In this document: positions 9,670 to 63,953 of the stretch, in pieces
Layout: each line of letters begins with the position of its first letter
How positions within the stretch are numbered: the stretch's first letter is position 1
DNA from: an uncultured Bacteroidota bacterium
GTDB taxonomy: Bacteria; Bacteroidota; Bacteroidia; Bacteroidales; P3
Assembly (NCBI GenBank): GCA_902791695.1
Contig: CADAWR010000006.1
Location: forward strand, 26,290 to 90,289
Direction: 5' to 3'
Length of the DNA stretch: 64,000 nucleotides
Translations under genes and position numbers: made by a program
The notes under the pieces: model-generated
Seen by the model: the letters and a program-made list of their open reading frames with translations, nothing else
Database searches by the model: none
Told to the model about the DNA's origin: nothing

Positions 9670-9772
9670 GCACCCGCTCCGGACTTCCTCCGGCTCCGCT
9701 CCGACAAAAAACCGTTAAACAACCGGTGAACAGTCGGAGCGGGTACGGAGCGGGTACGGAGCGGGTGCGGAG
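9670..9772. repeat. 11-bp periodic palindromic array A
   Basis: Nine successive 11-base units with almost no length error. The left arm is of the form GCACCCGCTCC / GGCTCCGCTCC, the centre GTTAAACAACC, and the right arm three GGAGCGGGTAC-like units, which are the reverse complement of the left arm. It lies upstream of tRNA-Ser. Related arrays are at 33687, 45260 and 56535. The 9534-9829 gap otherwise holds only the tRNA promoter and the pepD terminator. Confidence 0.85.
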
Positions 9773-9777
9773 AAAAA

Positions 9778-17795: not shown

Positions 17796-18554
17796 TCATT
17801 CCGTGAGTCCCCCGTAGCTTTTGGCGGCGGCTTGGAGGGCTTCTTCTGTGGTATAACGCTCGTAGTATTGGCAGTGTGTGACCACGCGCTGGTGCGATGC
17901 GAAACCATCCTTCGCCCTTGTCAGTCCGAAGCCCAGCATCGGGTCGCCATAGCGTTCTCCCACAAGTGCAAGGGTCCCGTGGACGTTCTTGTAGGGCGAC
18001 ATTAGCGTCGAAGGCACGTTGACAAAGTCGTCGGCCTTGAGGGTCTCGACCTTGATTCTCAGTCGGAACAAGTCCTCGTCTTTGCGCCAATGGGTAACCT
18101 TCTGCTCCAGCACATAGAGCAACAGGGTGTCCTTCTTGGCCGATGCCTTTGTGAGGTCGGTAAGCAGCGCAGGCTGTCCGTCGACATACCCCAGCTGGTA
18201 GCTGATGGGAGACAACGGGCCGTCGCTGACCACCATATCGGGCAACAGCAAGGCGTTGCCCGAATGGTATTGCTGCTTCTTCAGATAAGGCACAGGCGAA
18301 TACAGGTTGACAGACATAAACCGGTTGTAGGGGGCATTCTCTCCCTCGAAAAAGATCATCCTTGTAGCCTTCAGCGCGCGCCAGAGGGCATTGTTGTGAC
18401 TCTGTCGTTCGCGAATAAGCAGCTGCTTCCTCGACAGCCGTCGCGGTTGACGAATATGTTTGGGGCGGACAAAAGTCTTGTCCCCGCGTTTGTAGAATAG
18501 GAGCCCATCCAGTTGCCCCTCCAAATTCTCCAGTATACCTGTCGCTCGTGCCAT
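17796..18554 (-). CDS. Conserved Bacteroidales hypothetical protein
   Basis: The product is 252 residues with no signal peptide or membrane helix. The N-terminus (ARATGILENLEGQLDGLLFYKR followed by a very basic stretch rich in Arg) is reminiscent of phage- or conjugation-related structural proteins of Bacteroidales, but I do not recognise a named family. The rest is a mixed alpha/beta sequence rich in Tyr and Leu. Its upstream region carries an 11-bp periodic array and a candidate -7 box at 18794-18787, so a leader of over 200 bases is possible. Confidence 0.65.
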   Translation of the reverse strand: MARATGILENLEGQLDGLLFYKRGDKTFVRPKHIRQPRRLSRKQLLIRERQSHNNALWRALKATRMIFFEGENAPYNRFMSVNLYSPVPYLKKQQYHSGNALLLPDMVVSDGPLSPISYQLGYVDGQPALLTDLTKASAKKDTLLLYVLEQKVTHWRKDEDLFRLRIKVETLKADDFVNVPSTLMSPYKNVHGTLALVGERYGDPMLGFGLTRAKDGFASHQRVVTHCQYYERYTTEEALQAAAKSYGGLTE

Positions 18555-21685: not shown

Positions 21686-23284
21686 ATGGATACAAAGTAC
21701 ATTTTCGTCACGGGCGGCGTGGTCTCTTCGTTGGGGAAGGGCATCATCTCCGCCAGCATCGGCCGTCTGCTGCAGGCACGCGGCTATAAGGTCACTATTC
21801 AGAAATTCGACCCCTACATCAACATCGACCCCGGTACGCTGAACCCCTACGAGCACGGCGAGTGCTACGTGACGGACGACGGTTTCGAGACCGACCTCGA
21901 CCTGGGACATTACGAGCGCTTCACGGGCATCCACACCACACGCAACAACAGCATCACCACGGGCCGTATCTACAAGACGGTCATCGACCGCGAGCGCAAG
22001 GGCGACTATCTGGGCAAGACCATCCAGGTGGTGCCCCACATCACCGACGAAATCAAGCGTCGCATGCTGCGCGAGGACGAGAAGGACGAGCAGCTCGACT
22101 TCGTCATTACCGAGGTGGGCGGCACCATCGGCGACATCGAGAGTGCCCCCTTCATGGAGGCCATCCGTCAGCTGCGCTGGCAACTGGGTCGCAACGCCGT
22201 CTGTGTACATTTGACCTATGTGCCTTACCTGAAGGCTGCCGACGAGCTCAAGACCAAGCCCACACAACACAGCGTGAAGGAGTTGCAGTCGATGGGCATC
22301 CAGCCGGACATCCTGGTGCTGCGCACCGAACGCCACCTCGACGACCACATGCGTATGAAGGTGGCGTCGTTCTGCAACGTGGACCTCGAATGCGTGGTTC
22401 AGAGCGAGGATATGCCCAGCATCTACGAGGTGCCGGTGAACATGCAGAAGCAGGGTCTCGACGCCGCCATCCTGCGTAAGATAGGCATCCCCGTGGGCGA
22501 GACGCCGGAGATGAAAGCATGGCACGACTTCCTCGACAAGCAGCGCAACGCCAAGCGCGAGGTGCATATCGGCTTGGTGGGCAAGTACGACCTGCAGGAC
22601 GCCTACAAGAGCATTCGCGAGAGCCTGAACCTGGCTGGCATCTACAACGATGTGAAGGCCAAACTGCACTTCGTCAACAGTGAAGAGATTACCGAACAGA
22701 ATGTAGCCGAGAAACTTGAAGGGTTAGCGGGCATCGTCATCTGTCCGGGTTTCGGCACACGCGGCATCGAGGGCAAAATTATCGCTGCCGAATACACCCG
22801 CACCCACGACATCCCTACTTTCGGTATCTGCCTCGGTATGCAGATGATGGTCATCGAGTTTGCCCGCAACGTGCTGGGATACAAGGATGCCAACAGTCGC
22901 GAGATGGACGAAAAGACGCCCCACAACGTCATTGACATCATGGAGGAGCAGAAGAGCATCACCCAGATGGGCGGCACCATGCGACTGGGCGCCTACGACT
23001 GCGAACTGAAAGAAGGCAGCCGAGTGTATGAGGCCTATGGAAAGGAAAATCTTATCAAGGAACGCCACCGCCACCGCTACGAGTTCAACAATGCCTTCAA
23101 GGAAGAATATGAGGCCAAGGGCATGAAGTGCGTGGGCGTCAATCCCGCCGCCAACCTGGTGGAGATTGTCGAGATACCCGAAAAGCGCTGGTACATCGGC
23201 ACCCAGTTCCACCCCGAATACTCGTCGTCGGTGCTGAACCCGCATCCGCTGTTCATGAGTTTCGTCAAGGAATGCGCTCAATAA
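21686..23284 (+). CDS. pyrG: CTP synthase
   Basis: The enzyme aminates UTP to CTP using glutamine and ATP. The 532 residues show the N-terminal synthetase domain (FVTGGVVSSLGKGIISAS at residues 6-23, the P-loop-like site; EVGGTIGDIES near 150) and the C-terminal class I glutaminase with the nucleophile Cys in GICLGMQMM near residue 390 and the His-Pro-Glu triad partner in QFHPEYSS near 515. It begins 49 bases after glnN. A 7-bp repeat array separates it from the next gene. Confidence 0.98.
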   Translation: MDTKYIFVTGGVVSSLGKGIISASIGRLLQARGYKVTIQKFDPYINIDPGTLNPYEHGECYVTDDGFETDLDLGHYERFTGIHTTRNNSITTGRIYKTVIDRERKGDYLGKTIQVVPHITDEIKRRMLREDEKDEQLDFVITEVGGTIGDIESAPFMEAIRQLRWQLGRNAVCVHLTYVPYLKAADELKTKPTQHSVKELQSMGIQPDILVLRTERHLDDHMRMKVASFCNVDLECVVQSEDMPSIYEVPVNMQKQGLDAAILRKIGIPVGETPEMKAWHDFLDKQRNAKREVHIGLVGKYDLQDAYKSIRESLNLAGIYNDVKAKLHFVNSEEITEQNVAEKLEGLAGIVICPGFGTRGIEGKIIAAEYTRTHDIPTFGICLGMQMMVIEFARNVLGYKDANSREMDEKTPHNVIDIMEEQKSITQMGGTMRLGAYDCELKEGSRVYEAYGKENLIKERHRHRYEFNNAFKEEYEAKGMKCVGVNPAANLVEIVEIPEKRWYIGTQFHPEYSSSVLNPHPLFMSFVKECAQ

Positions 23285-23317
23285 TTGTCAATTTTCAATT
23301 ATCAATTGTCAATTATC
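23283..23317. repeat. 7-bp repeat array between pyrG and purF-like
   Basis: Five consecutive heptamers of the form AATTNTC (GTC, TTC, ATC, GTC, ATC) fill the junction and begin inside the pyrG stop codon. The same family occurs inside ispE at 51113-51147. Confidence 0.85.
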
Positions 23318-27656: not shown

Positions 27657-27777
27657 TATGACTATCGTATAACCGTATTTCAACCATAATATATGGTAAA
27701 AGGATGGTCGAAGGATGGTTGAAATATGGTCGAAATGATGGTTAGTTGGCGGAGGAAAAGCGGAGGAATGGGGGTGG
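27657..27777. repeat. 11-bp periodic array E
   Basis: About eleven 11-base units (one step of 12) with dyad symmetry: the left side carries AACCGTAT and CAACCATAA, the right side AGGATGGTCGA, AGGATGGTTGA, AATATGGTCGA, then GGCGGAGG units. It lies 135 bases upstream of the nnrD start. Together with the terminator below it accounts for the gap 27523-27896. Confidence 0.75.
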
Positions 27778-32786: not shown

Positions 32787-33631
32787 AATGTGTTGCGGTA
32801 TAACAGTTTAACGGTCTCCTCGGCAGGCCTTACGTCGTGCACCCGAATGGCCGCTGCGCCGCGGTCGAGGGCTATGGTGTCGAGAGCCACGGTGCCGTTG
32901 AGGGCCTCGGCGGGCGTGGTGCCGAGGGTGGTGTAAATCATGCGCTTGCGGCTCAGTCCGACGAGCACGGGCTCGCGGAAGAGGGTGGTGAGCTCGTCGA
33001 GGCGGTCGAGGAGCTCGAAATTCTGCTCCATGCTCTTGGCGAAGCCAAGGCCAGGGTCGAGCCATACATCCTTGACCCCCAGGCGGTATAGGACGTCGAG
33101 GCGCGCTGAGAAGAACTTTGTCAGGGTGTCCACGGGGTCGCCGTCGCCCATCTCCTTGATGCCGGCCAGGTGCTCCTTGCCGCCATGCATCAGTATGTAA
33201 GGCACTTGCAGCTCGGCCACAACGCCGAACATCTGCTCGTCGGCCTCGCCGCCGCAGATGTCATTGACCATGTCGGCCCCGGCCTCTATGGCTGCTCGCG
33301 CAGGCATTGAGTAACAGGTGTCTACGGAAATCAGAGCCTCAGGCAATTCGGTGCGCACCAGCCGCACAGCCCATGCCAGCCGTTCGGCCTCCACCTCGCG
33401 GGGCGGCAGCACAGCCCCGGGTCGGCTCGACGCGGCACCGATGTCGATGATGTCGGCCCCCTCGGCCACAATGGCTTGCGCGCGCCGCACAATGGCCTCC
33501 TCCGAGCGATAGCGGCCACCGTCGTAGAACGAGTCGTCGGTGACGTTGAGGATGCCCATCACCGCCGGCCGGCGGAACTCCACGAGGCGCCCGCGTGCCA
33601 CGATGCTGAACGGTCTGATTGTCTGTTTCAT
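32783..33631 (-). CDS. folP: Dihydropteroate synthase
   Basis: This folate enzyme condenses the pterin pyrophosphate with p-aminobenzoate and is the sulfonamide target. The 282 residues show the TIM-barrel motifs: GILNVTDDSFYDGG near residue 26, DIGAASSRPGA near 62, ISVDTCYS near 100, NDIC near 128, and DPGLGFAKS near 210. The C-terminus has IRVHDVRPAEE. Its upstream region holds array B and then a divergent gene. Confidence 0.97.
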   Translation of the reverse strand: MKQTIRPFSIVARGRLVEFRRPAVMGILNVTDDSFYDGGRYRSEEAIVRRAQAIVAEGADIIDIGAASSRPGAVLPPREVEAERLAWAVRLVRTELPEALISVDTCYSMPARAAIEAGADMVNDICGGEADEQMFGVVAELQVPYILMHGGKEHLAGIKEMGDGDPVDTLTKFFSARLDVLYRLGVKDVWLDPGLGFAKSMEQNFELLDRLDELTTLFREPVLVGLSRKRMIYTTLGTTPAEALNGTVALDTIALDRGAAAIRVHDVRPAEETVKLLYRNTL

Positions 33632-33686
33632 TACCTTTTAATAACGCCGTCGCACCGCGATTATTGCACCACCGCACAAAAAATAT

Positions 33687-33829
33687 TGCCCCTCCGACCC
33701 CGCTCCGTATCCTCTCCGTCTCTTCTCCGACTGTTTACCGGTTGTTCACCGGTTGTTTACCGGTTTATATCGTAGAACAACCGGTGAACAACCGTAGAAC
33801 AGACGGAGAGGGTACGGAGATGGTACGGA
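33687..33829. repeat. 11-bp periodic palindromic array B
   Basis: Thirteen consecutive 11-base units with no length error. The left half reads TGCCCCTCCGA, CCCCGCTCCGT, ATCCTCTCCGT, CTCTTCTCCGA, CTGTTTACCGG, TTGTTCACCGG, TTGTTTACCGG; the right half carries the reverse complement (GAACAACCGGT, GAACAACCGTA, GAACAGACGGA, GAGGGTACGGA, GATGGTACGGA). It fills the divergent gap between folP and the DUF1599 gene and is the cleanest copy of the family. Confidence 0.9.
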
Positions 33830-45174: not shown

Positions 45175-45259
45175 CAACTAATTTGATTAAGTGGAAAGTT
45201 TTTTGAAAAAATAATATGTTTTTGCTGTTTGTTGATTTGCCAGCCATCTTTTTCCCCAC

Positions 45260-45369
45260 GTATCCGCTCCGTACCCGCTCCGTACCCGCTCCGACTGTTC
45301 ACCGGTTGTTTAACGGTTTTTTGTCGGAGCGGCTACGGAGCGGGTACGGGGTGGATACGGATTGGCTAC
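45260..45369. repeat. 11-bp periodic palindromic array C
   Basis: Ten 11-base units: GTATCCGCTCC, GTACCCGCTCC twice, GACTGTTCACC, GGTTGTTTAAC, GGTTTTTTGTC, then GGAGCGGCTAC, GGAGCGGGTAC, GGGGTGGATAC, GGATTGGCTAC. The two arms are inverse complements. It lies in the 384-base gap between the decarboxylase and FKBP genes. Confidence 0.88.
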
Positions 45370-45440
45370 GGCTCATACTTGCTTCCGGGTACCGACATCT
45401 GGCGGTGGAATGAGCCTGCAGGTATTAATGGTTTGTAAAA

Positions 45441-50672: not shown

Positions 50673-51420
50673 CCTCGGCCTACATGTGGTGGGCAAGCGG
50701 CCCGACGGCTATCACGACTTGGAGACCATTTTCCTGCCGGTGCTTGACCTCTGCGACGAGTTGGAAATAGTGGAGAACGACACGTTACAGATGGTGCAGG
50801 AGGGTATAGTGCTCGACAATGCGCCGGAGGACAACCTCTGCACCCGTGCCTGGCGGTTGTTGCATGACGAGTACGATATACCGCCGGTGAGCATCCGCCT
50901 CAATAAGAACATACCTTTTGGCGCTGGTCTGGGTGGTGGTAGCAGCGATGCCGCCTTTACCCTCAAGATGCTCAACGAGATGTTTTCTCTCGGTCTCAGC
51001 GATAGTCAGCTCGAACAGCGTGCTGCACGCCTCGGAGCCGACTGCGCCTTCTTTATCCGCAACACCCCAGCCTACGCTACCGGCATCGGTGACCAAATTC
51101 AACCTCTGCCCGAATTCTCAATTCTCAATTCTCAATTCTCAATTCAAGTTGAGATACCGGAAGGGGAACATGTGTCGACCAAGGAGGCTTATTCTGGCCT
51201 CAAGCGCGACCTCTTCGGAGCCACTCGTCCCGACCTGCGCAAAGCGGTCAAGCAGTCGATAGGGGAGTGGCGCCATCTCATCGTCAACGACTTCGAGACC
51301 TCGGTCTTTCCGACGCATCCCGCTATCTCCGCCCTCAAAGAGGACATGTACCGCCGTGGTGCCCTCTATGCCTCTATGACAGGTAGCGGCGCCGCCGTAT
51401 TCGGCATCTTCGACAAATAA
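50644..51420 (+). CDS. ispE: 4-diphosphocytidyl-2-C-methyl-D-erythritol kinase
   Basis: This GHMP kinase acts in the MEP route to isoprenoids. The 258 residues show the substrate end PNCKINLGLHVVGKRPDGYHDL (at residue 5 on, split here), the ATP loop PFGAGLGGGSSDAAF near 95 and the closing SMTGSGAAVFGIF. The middle holds FSILNSQFSIQ, encoded by four and a half AATTCTC heptamers (51113-51147), in place of the usual loop. The start lies inside phoH. MEP-pathway isoprenoids include the undecaprenyl carrier used by the sugar transferase in this window. Confidence 0.94.
   Translation: MITYPNCKINLGLHVVGKRPDGYHDLETIFLPVLDLCDELEIVENDTLQMVQEGIVLDNAPEDNLCTRAWRLLHDEYDIPPVSIRLNKNIPFGAGLGGGSSDAAFTLKMLNEMFSLGLSDSQLEQRAARLGADCAFFIRNTPAYATGIGDQIQPLPEFSILNSQFSIQVEIPEGEHVSTKEAYSGLKRDLFGATRPDLRKAVKQSIGEWRHLIVNDFETSVFPTHPAISALKEDMYRRGALYASMTGSGAAVFGIFDK
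51113..51147. repeat. 7-bp repeat array inside ispE
   Basis: Four exact AATTCTC heptamers plus one variant (AATTCAA) lie inside the reading frame. They encode FSILNSQFSIQ. A gain or loss of one unit would shift the ispE frame. Confidence 0.88.
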
Positions 51421-56486: not shown

Positions 56487-56518
56487 CAAAGGTACAAAGA
56501 TTTCCACTAACCGCCAAA
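56487..56518 (-). promoter_or_regulatory. Promoter of tex
   Basis: On the minus strand TTTG (56518-56515), 20 bases, TACCTTTG (56494-56487): exact consensus. The -7 box ends 6 bases before the tex ATG, so the transcript would have almost no leader. Array D begins 17 bases further upstream. Confidence 0.8.
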
Positions 56519-56534: not shown

Positions 56535-56671
56535 GTATCCTCTCCGTATCCTCACCGTACCCGCTCCATCTGTTCACCGGTTGTTTACCGGTTGTTCACC
56601 GGTTTAAACCGTTAAACAGTCGGTGAACAACCGGTGAACAGACGGAGCGGGGTCGGTGAGGGGGCGGTGCG
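56535..56671. repeat. 11-bp periodic palindromic array D
   Basis: Twelve 11-base units: GTATCCTCTCC, GTATCCTCACC, GTACCCGCTCC, ATCTGTTCACC, GGTTGTTTACC, GGTTGTTCACC, GGTTTAAACCG, TTAAACAGTCG, GTGAACAACCG, GTGAACAGACG, GAGCGGGGTCG, GTGAGGGGGCG. The centre of symmetry is at the GGTTTAAACC unit. It lies between tex and tRNA-Leu; the rest of the 56482-56853 gap shows no gene. Confidence 0.9.
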
Positions 56672-56829
56672 GCTAAAGGCTTCCGTTCGCTCGTGACTTA
56701 TGTGATGCAATCTATCCGGAGGACGGGCATATAGCGGAGTCATGATATGCGGGCGTTCGTCAACTACCTGTAAACAAACATAATGGACTTTGCGTTAAAA
56801 ATAAATTATTCCATGTCGGAAATTATTAG

Positions 56830-56837
56830 TAATTTTG
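56830..56837 (+). promoter_or_regulatory. -7 box of the tRNA-Leu transcript
   Basis: TAATTTTG lies 16 bases before the tRNA 5' end. No -33 TTTG at 20 bases is seen. Confidence 0.5.
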
Positions 56838-63857: not shown

Positions 63858-63953
63858 CATATACATCGGCTATTGTTAGGATATACTTACCATATACTTA
63901 CCATATACAAAACATATACCTCAGCATATACAAAACATATACAAACCATATAC
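63858..63953. repeat. 11-bp periodic array G (CATATAC)
   Basis: CATATAC (or GATATAC) starts at 63858, 63880, 63891, 63902, 63913, 63925, 63936 and 63947: steps of 11, one of 12, and one of 22. No gene is visible in the remaining 47 bases of the window. Confidence 0.88.

Follow-up and report, generated by a model that had tools for sequence, protein, structure and literature searches.

Arrays of 11-bp units upstream of predicted promoters suggest a new kind of promoter element in Bacteroidales

What are the spacer-free arrays of 11-bp units that lie between ordinary genes in this genome? An initial annotation of the window, the whole stretch of 64,000 nucleotides analyzed here, had singled out four related arrays, at 9670, 33687, 45260 and 56535, and described them as built on a strict 11-bp step from common inner and outer units, without CRISPR-like spacers. 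All four are there. A lag scan of the window returned five segments at lag 11 with at least 32 of 44 matches, and at lags 4 to 40 other than 11 it returned none, except one at lag 24; lag 11 thus stands out, in agreement with the strict step. The inner unit TTGTTYACCGG, with up to one mismatch allowed, matches 16 times in the window, compared to a mean of 1.56 and a maximum of 5 in 100 shuffles, and the sharing of inner and outer units among the four arrays was borne out. The units run head to tail in all four. With head-to-tail 11-bp units, inverted halves and no spacers, a CRISPR array was rejected. The scan of the window also uncovered two further 11-bp array families that had been missed. 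The features are as follows.

9670..9775, minus strand: type 1 array (asymmetric), between the tRNA-Ser/serS side and an M20 peptidase gene
27680..27749, no strand assigned: 11-bp array of another unit family, unit ATGGTCGAAGG, with an inverted copy TTTCAACCAT on the left
33687..33829, no strand assigned: type 2 array (dyad), arms 33704-33757 and 33776-33829, 83% complementary
45259..45371, plus strand: type 1 array (asymmetric), upstream of a pyridoxal-dependent decarboxylase-domain gene
56487..56494, minus strand: -7 promoter motif TANNTTTG on the tex side, reading away from the array at 56535, distance 85 (L011 L)
56535..56675, no strand assigned: type 2 array, arms 56536-56605 and 56606-56675, 80% complementary
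56830..56837, plus strand: -7 promoter motif on the tRNA-Leu side, reading away from the array at 56535, distance 198 (L011 R)
63863..63953, no strand assigned: 11-bp array of a third family, CATATACTTAC / CATATACAAAA (CATATAC), downstream of tRNA-Met, near the contig end

The palindromic halves ascribed to all four arrays hold for those at 33687 and 56535, which are full dyads, but not for those at 9670 and 45260, which represent an asymmetric second type: a single arm holds two inner units, and there are also a TTTTTTG tract and outer units in inverted orientation. The array at 33687 separates the divergently transcribed folP and a DUF1599 gene; it has inner units TTGTTYNMCGG in both arms and CTCCG/CGGAG units outside them. 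The array at 56535 occupies the gap between tex (minus) and tRNA-Leu (plus) and has a central TTTAAA. At 45260, the left arm carries the two inner units, and outer units lie to the left and right; the gene downstream, labeled speA, encodes an Orn_Arg_deC_N domain. The array at 9670 adjoins a terminator-like hairpin that closes the M20 peptidase gene. A syntenic site for the array at 27680 is found in RUG12227 (G091; L348, ~18138-18197), where the units are ATCGTTGAAAT. The same base differs across the compared units, CCAT in the source genome and CGAT in RUG12227, which looks, from these sequences, like a concerted change of all units together. Downstream of the tRNA-Met that precedes the third family, RUG12227 has a CCGG-family type 1 array instead (L194, ~1685-1754).

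The initial annotation had asked for a genome-wide count of copies. The source genome (G000) is a 95% complete draft of 2.17 Mb in 37 unordered contigs. Searching it for ACCGGTTGTTYACCGG with up to one mismatch gave 72 + 61 matches, with 0 in the reversed control, and BLASTN with positions 45250-45375 as the query gave 75 matches, of which 40 places were scored. Merging the BLASTN places with those of ACCGGTTGTTYACCGG (100 listed of 133) yields at least 95 array sites. The arrays are neither few nor, among the families compared, part of a known transposon. We analyzed 91 of them; L140, which the unit pattern missed, and L345-L347 are outside this set, and the second rows of L156 and L165 were removed from the 93 rows as chance matches in coding-looking sequence. 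By pattern, the set comprises 55 dyads, 32 type 1 arrays and 4 type-1-like arrays. In two of the type-1-like arrays (L154 and L172), the right side consists of consecutive 11-bp units resembling ACGGAGGTTGG, which look recently expanded. The exact unit pattern was found in 3 of 120 genomes of the genus, the source genome included, and this is an undercount, since other unit forms occur.

Aligning 53 dyads at the center gave a picture of their anatomy. The inner-unit AACA never varies, which is due in part to how the search pattern was built; the CGG and CGGAG boxes, which the pattern did not impose, are strongly conserved. There are five main forms of the inner unit, with CAC, CTA, TAA, CGA or TAC at three positions. 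Outer boxes fade past about four units: in right arms, CG is in register at +3, +4 and +5 units in 46/55, 22/55 and 9/55 arrays, so that the outer units are lost gradually. There is a register shift at the dyad center, which is 6 nt in most dyads of the source genome and mostly 7 nt in RUG649 and RUG12227. The center is also systematically unlike between the arms. The innermost units of the source genome's dyads usually end one arm with TTGTTTAACGG or TTGTTTACCGG and the other with TTGTTC(G/T)ACGG, and this central asymmetry is accounted for by none of the explanations proposed below.

We then considered that the arrays might act as RNA hairpins, namely terminators, attenuators or mRNA stabilizers. 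Dyads would fold into long hairpins if transcribed, 8 of the 91 arrays lie in convergent gaps, and arm positions 29, 30, 36, 37, 52 and 61 match above the shuffled level (z 2.1-3.7). However, most of the variable outer positions do not match between arms above the shuffled level; because these do not covary, the arms appear to be kept mainly by sequence rather than by pairing. In the innermost unit, positions 8-9 match even less than expected, at 0.15 versus 0.41 and 0.11 versus 0.50, that is, in 15% and 11% of the 53 dyads. On both grounds the hairpin is disfavored as the main constraint. An Rfam search of the window at the gathering score gave 4 tRNAs and nothing else, so the arrays match no known structured RNA. 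The arrays also lie upstream of promoter motifs that read away from them. Taken together, these data make an RNA-level role extremely unlikely.

According to the gene caller, 49 of the 91 lie in divergent gaps, 29 in codirectional gaps and 8 in convergent gaps, 4 are inside a gene and 1 is at an edge. The arrays are therefore mostly intergenic: 86 of 91 are placed in a gap, and 4 are called inside a gene. One of these, L009, is the array at 33687, and here the call is a caller error, since the gap between folP and the DUF1599 gene is divergent; L055, L060 and L159 remain inside as called. Among the genus's 40 sampled stretches, 32-40% of the gaps that reach a minimum length of 150-250 bp are divergent, a baseline that includes the array-bearing gaps, and the 49/86 observed exceeds it with a P value of 1.5e-6 to 8e-4. 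The neighbors are ordinary genes, such as tex, folP and those for seryl-tRNA synthetase, IMP dehydrogenase and fumarase, as well as tRNAs. We compared 28 array-adjacent proteins with Pfam; 3 had no match and the others had unrelated functions, and a regulon of common function was rejected. The lack of a function common to the flanking genes counts against reading the arrays as promoter elements.

To place promoters we used TANNTTTG, the known -7 motif of the Bacteroidetes sigma factor ABfr, as described in PMC7366714; promoters here are predicted from motif matches rather than from mapped starts. The motif reads away from the arrays of the source genome on 47/90 and 49/90 sides, compared to 5.5 and 6.2 after shuffling. 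Reading toward the array, it is found on 9 and 13 of 90 sides, with 7 after shuffling, and it is found inside 0 of the 91 arrays. At the array at 33687, a motif position check showed no TANNTTTG to about 130 bp out on either flank. This missing motif, and the half or so of the dyad arms that have none in range (57/110 have one), count against the promoter-element reading. Upstream of folP, at about 33620-33675 on the minus strand, there is a pair of CACAATAA and a GCGTTA-like sequence where TANNTTTG is not seen. The same pair recurs before folP in several genomes (L236, L237, L241, L242 and L244), and it is perhaps, to judge from its sequence, a second promoter class beside arrays.

Distances to the -7 motif were counted starting at the outermost inner unit. 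For dyads, these distances cluster at 76-78, 85-90, 97-101, 107-113 and 118-123, and 40 of the 57 fall at residues 10, 0, 1 and 2 modulo 11. This comb has an nR2 of 15.4 at 11.25 bp, a value reached by 0 of 5,000 jittered controls, and stricter versions of the -7 motif give 12.0-15.3. Fifteen permuted motifs, with 8-20 arms each, give at most 5.0. Taken singly these are weak controls, because the true arms cut down to 10-20 reach 3.9-6.2; pooled, the permuted motifs (257 positions) give 2.1. Decoys of similar size give 0.75 (GCAA, 62 arms), 1.9 (TATT, 84 arms) and 4.7 (GGAA, 52 arms). The register recurs in family B, an unrelated family of TTCTTCAGTAG units, in which 47/86 arms have a motif and nR2 is 9.9 at 11.0 bp (3/5,000). 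Among relatives, 32 arms of family A dyads, mostly from RUG649 and RUG12227, give 7.8 (18/5,000), with peaks at 10.5 and 11.5 bp (7.7 and 7.8) and 6.0 at 11.0 bp. Type 1 arms showed no clear comb (left, 23 arms, 5.2; right, 37 arms, 4.1). This result and the relatives' peaks away from 11.0 bp weigh against the promoter-element reading. Where a -7 motif is present by a dyad, then, it tends to lie whole helical turns from the array register.

A register of this kind could also arise from a fixed insertion point followed by gain or loss of 11-bp units. Over six rising distance classes, the mean number of visible units is 2.0, 3.9, 3.1, 3.9, 3.2 and 4.9. Visible units show no steady increase with distance, so a variable count of units behind a fixed end explains the comb poorly, and we did not retain it, although old units may have faded.

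Another possibility is that the arrays are structural DNA elements, in which repetition at one or two turns curves the DNA or makes it superhelical upstream of promoters. The sequence would then matter little, and units could therefore change while the geometry is kept, as is seen between species. A/T tracts are phased too (AAAAA 12.8, TTTTTT 5.5, AAAA 9.6, TTTT 6.0); because both A and T tracts are in register, a structural cause could be at work, which counts against the promoter-element reading. Two-turn steps in other genera, described below, agree with it as well. But many unit positions are strongly conserved base by base within the genome, which curvature alone does not need, and we consider a purely structural role decidedly unlikely. 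The idea in the initial annotation of a protein that reads one helix face is strengthened by the promoter register of the dyads and by the variable outer arm positions, most of which do not covary, but the protein, suggested by sequence patterns, is putative.

A further property of the arrays emerged from relatives within the genus, including two rumen assemblies, RUG649 (G082) and RUG12227, and one from sheep rectum, RGIG6226 (G043). In relatives whose tex is about 84% identical, arrays of this design occur throughout the genome but are made of unrelated 11-bp units, and some of these arrays lie at the same gene pair. At the tex gap, units are TTCTTCAGTAG in G068 and RGIG6226 and ATTGACCTAGT in G054 and G015. 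The folP gap has TTCTTCAGTAG units in G068 and G078, TAGTATTACGG in G037, ATGACNNAAGG-like units in G015, and type 1 arrays in RUG12227 and RUG649; G092 has TTCTTATGTAT units at folP, where the neighbor gene differs. No array was seen at the folP gap in RGIG6226, G051, G069, G056 and G035. Type 1 and type 2 arrays substitute for each other at orthologous sites (24 comparisons, two of them the same locus, with relatives picked for carrying an array), and at some gene pairs one species carries an array that another lacks; both observations weigh against the promoter-element reading. The CCGG/CGGAG box, which the initial annotation had seen as facing one side of the DNA, is therefore not what defines them: the design is shared between species while the unit sequence is replaced.

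We also scanned without presupposing any unit sequence. In 40 stretches from 40 genomes of the genus (756,557 bases), there are 24 lag-11 segments in 17 stretches, compared to 0 at lag 10, 2 at lag 12 and 0 at lag 13, and for 11 of the 24 the dyad exceeds the 99th percentile of 120 control windows. Lags 7, 14 and 21 gave 24, 17 and 14 segments, inflated by a separate repeat habit, 7-bp tandem repeats (for example, AATTCTC, GTAACCT and ACTCATC). These are frequent in the genus and occur in the window at 23283-23317 and 51113-51145 and in L194, L196, L199, L212 and others. Genome-wide, the TTCTTCAGTAG family has 300 hits in RGIG6226, 211 in G068 and 50 in G078, with 1, 0 and 0 in the reversed control. 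When 37 TTCTTCAGTAG sites of RGIG6226 and G068 were compared with the flanks of the source genome's arrays, 10 matched on both sides, 10 on one side and 17 on neither, some of the flank matches sitting 0.5-2 kb off the array; for these 37, the two unit families do not clearly occupy common sites more often than a preference for divergent gaps alone would produce. RGIG6226 has both unit families and also hybrid arrays (L323 and L309) with one arm or unit of each. In this genome, several family B arrays (L308, L310, L313, L316, L320, L325-L327) run on into a short palindromic CCGTCGCGGAGGCGACGG or close variants, possibly another module.

The main rival to a promoter element is a selfish, nonautonomous mobile repeat of the REPIN or MITE kind whose insertions fall upstream of promoters; the register could be produced by, for example, an insertion complex that docks on promoter-bound polymerase, if not by the fixed insertion point considered above. 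The similarity of at least 95 copies requires a copying process, families specific to one species take each other's place, hybrids occur, and the arrays are located where insertion harms least. Against this, the one transposase family searched, the RAYT family (Y1_Tnp, PF01797), is present in 6 of 12 genomes tested and missing from the other 6, including the source genome, a draft at 95% completeness; mobilization of its arrays by a RAYT was rejected. Outer units appear to fade rather than end sharply, the number of visible units accounts poorly for promoter distances, and the same design would have to re-arise in each unrelated family. We consider this explanation unlikely, though it deserves real weight.

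Beyond the genus, arrays take a different step. In 20 stretches from 10 other genera of the family (380,135 bases), scanned at the same threshold, there are 0 segments at lag 11 but 16, 6 and 4 at lags 21, 22 and 23, with 0 at lag 20 and 1 at lag 24; at least one of these two-turn segments looks coding (L371, 9161). Arrays with a 21-23-bp step were noted at L359 5043-5500, L353 1155-1411 and L371 326-559 and in L366, L367 and L369. In L353 and L359, they are dyads of inner and outer units at the two-turn step. In 18 arrays of G130, 82 of the 83 steps between GATGTACATC units measure exactly 22 bp, and the exact two-unit pattern is found at 86 places in this genome, with 0 in the control and none in three congeners. 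Eight of the 18 arrays are divergent; of the others, 3 are ++, 3 are --, 1 is +- and 3 have one side unknown. The -7 motif reads away on 27/36 sides and toward the array on 5, as raw counts without a shuffled control, and 27 arms of this family showed no clear comb (best, 4.8 at 9.25 bp).

What emerges is an array in which 11-bp units follow one another in a dyad or half-dyad, most often between divergent genes. The evidence favors a cis-element that acts on promoters through the helix face. Our best explanation, which we hold tentatively and at a shade under an even chance, is that the arrays are promoter-upstream cis-elements bound by a putative cooperative protein, in units that vary like dialects from species to species. 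The simplest mechanism would have this protein assemble on the DNA one turn after another, from the dyad center toward each promoter. The putative protein would bind successive turns on one helix face; loading would begin at the inner units and proceed outward along both arms. Once bound, it could offer a surface to RNA polymerase, as class I activators do, or it could separate the two promoters. Its specificity would drift between species. Copying, by transposition or by gene conversion between arrays, would then spread a new unit to most sites and could also yield hybrids; copying is required, as point mutations arising independently could not change about a hundred sites in the same way. 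The outcome would be a separate dialect in every species on an unchanged geometry, with other genera at the two-turn step. It is possible, if on the doubtful side, that a Bacteroidales family has a promoter code set by geometry rather than sequence, in which a cooperative protein that evolves fast and keeps in register with RNA polymerase reads dyad units at one or two turns, and about a hundred sites are rewritten between species.

Bacterial repeat families are defined by sequence. These arrays appear to be defined by geometry, that is, by the step, the dyad, the two unit classes and the register between dyad and promoter, while even close species differ in unit sequence. Any protein that reads them would be a global factor of promoter architecture, with a specificity that changes fast along with about a hundred sites, and a test case for the joint change of a regulator and all of its targets. 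The arrays also provide many natural replicates of phase-dependent promoter action, and a scan at lag 11 or lag 22 is a cue for finding such systems without knowledge of their sequence.

No known repeat family tested fits the arrays, in line with the initial view that no named family does, and we found no description of promoter-phased 11-bp arrays in the open-license papers searched. That the design is shared between species while the units are replaced suggests a new kind of promoter element. Class I activators work at positions one helical turn apart, and CRP-type class I sites are usually single, one per promoter, with one conserved sequence. The arrays resemble them in lying upstream of promoters at distances one helical turn apart, but they are multi-unit, and their unit sequences differ between species. 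Whole-turn promoter spacing was found for dyads, was not clear for type 1 arrays and was not seen in the two-turn family of G130.

The sites parS, matS and parC organize chromosomes, and the arrays could be sites of this sort, with the link to promoters being secondary. A number of at least 95 sites per 2.17 Mb would suit such a role. ParR of plasmid R1 is described as needing at least two 11-bp repeats, and parC, like the arrays, has 11-bp direct repeats on which a DNA-binding protein builds a higher-order structure (PMC9426499), the protein of the arrays being putative. However, parC is one plasmid locus, whereas the arrays are about a hundred chromosomal sites beside many unrelated genes, and promoter register and upstream placement are unexpected for chromosome organization, a role we judge highly unlikely.

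REPs and REPINs with their RAYTs are, as the arrays are, dispersed, intergenic and palindromic, in species-specific families (PMC3733652, PMC3116915). GTAG and CGTC do occur inside units of the arrays (e.g., CCGTAGAACA, CCGTCGAACA), as bare strings irrespective of stem-loop position. REPs are reported to lie mostly between codirectional and convergent genes (PMC3733652), a placement that differs from that of the arrays counted above, most of which are divergent. The arrays also have an 11-bp register, unlike REPs and REPINs.

The nearest repeat is BrickBuilt of Porphyromonas gingivalis, a MITE/minisatellite with 19 copies, a 23-nt step and reported promoter activity (PMC4596501). It too belongs to the Bacteroidetes and is intergenic, dispersed and made of spacer-free tandem units at about two turns. 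It differs in having a leader and a tail with terminal inverted repeats and up to 18 full repeats per copy, and comparison with its printed consensus shows a different unit, the 23-nt AGAYCATARTATCCTCTCRTRTG, where the arrays have a step of 11. The main text of the paper that describes it contains neither "helical" nor "palindrom" (PMC4596501). BrickBuilt may belong, with the arrays reported here, to a wider world of two-turn arrays.
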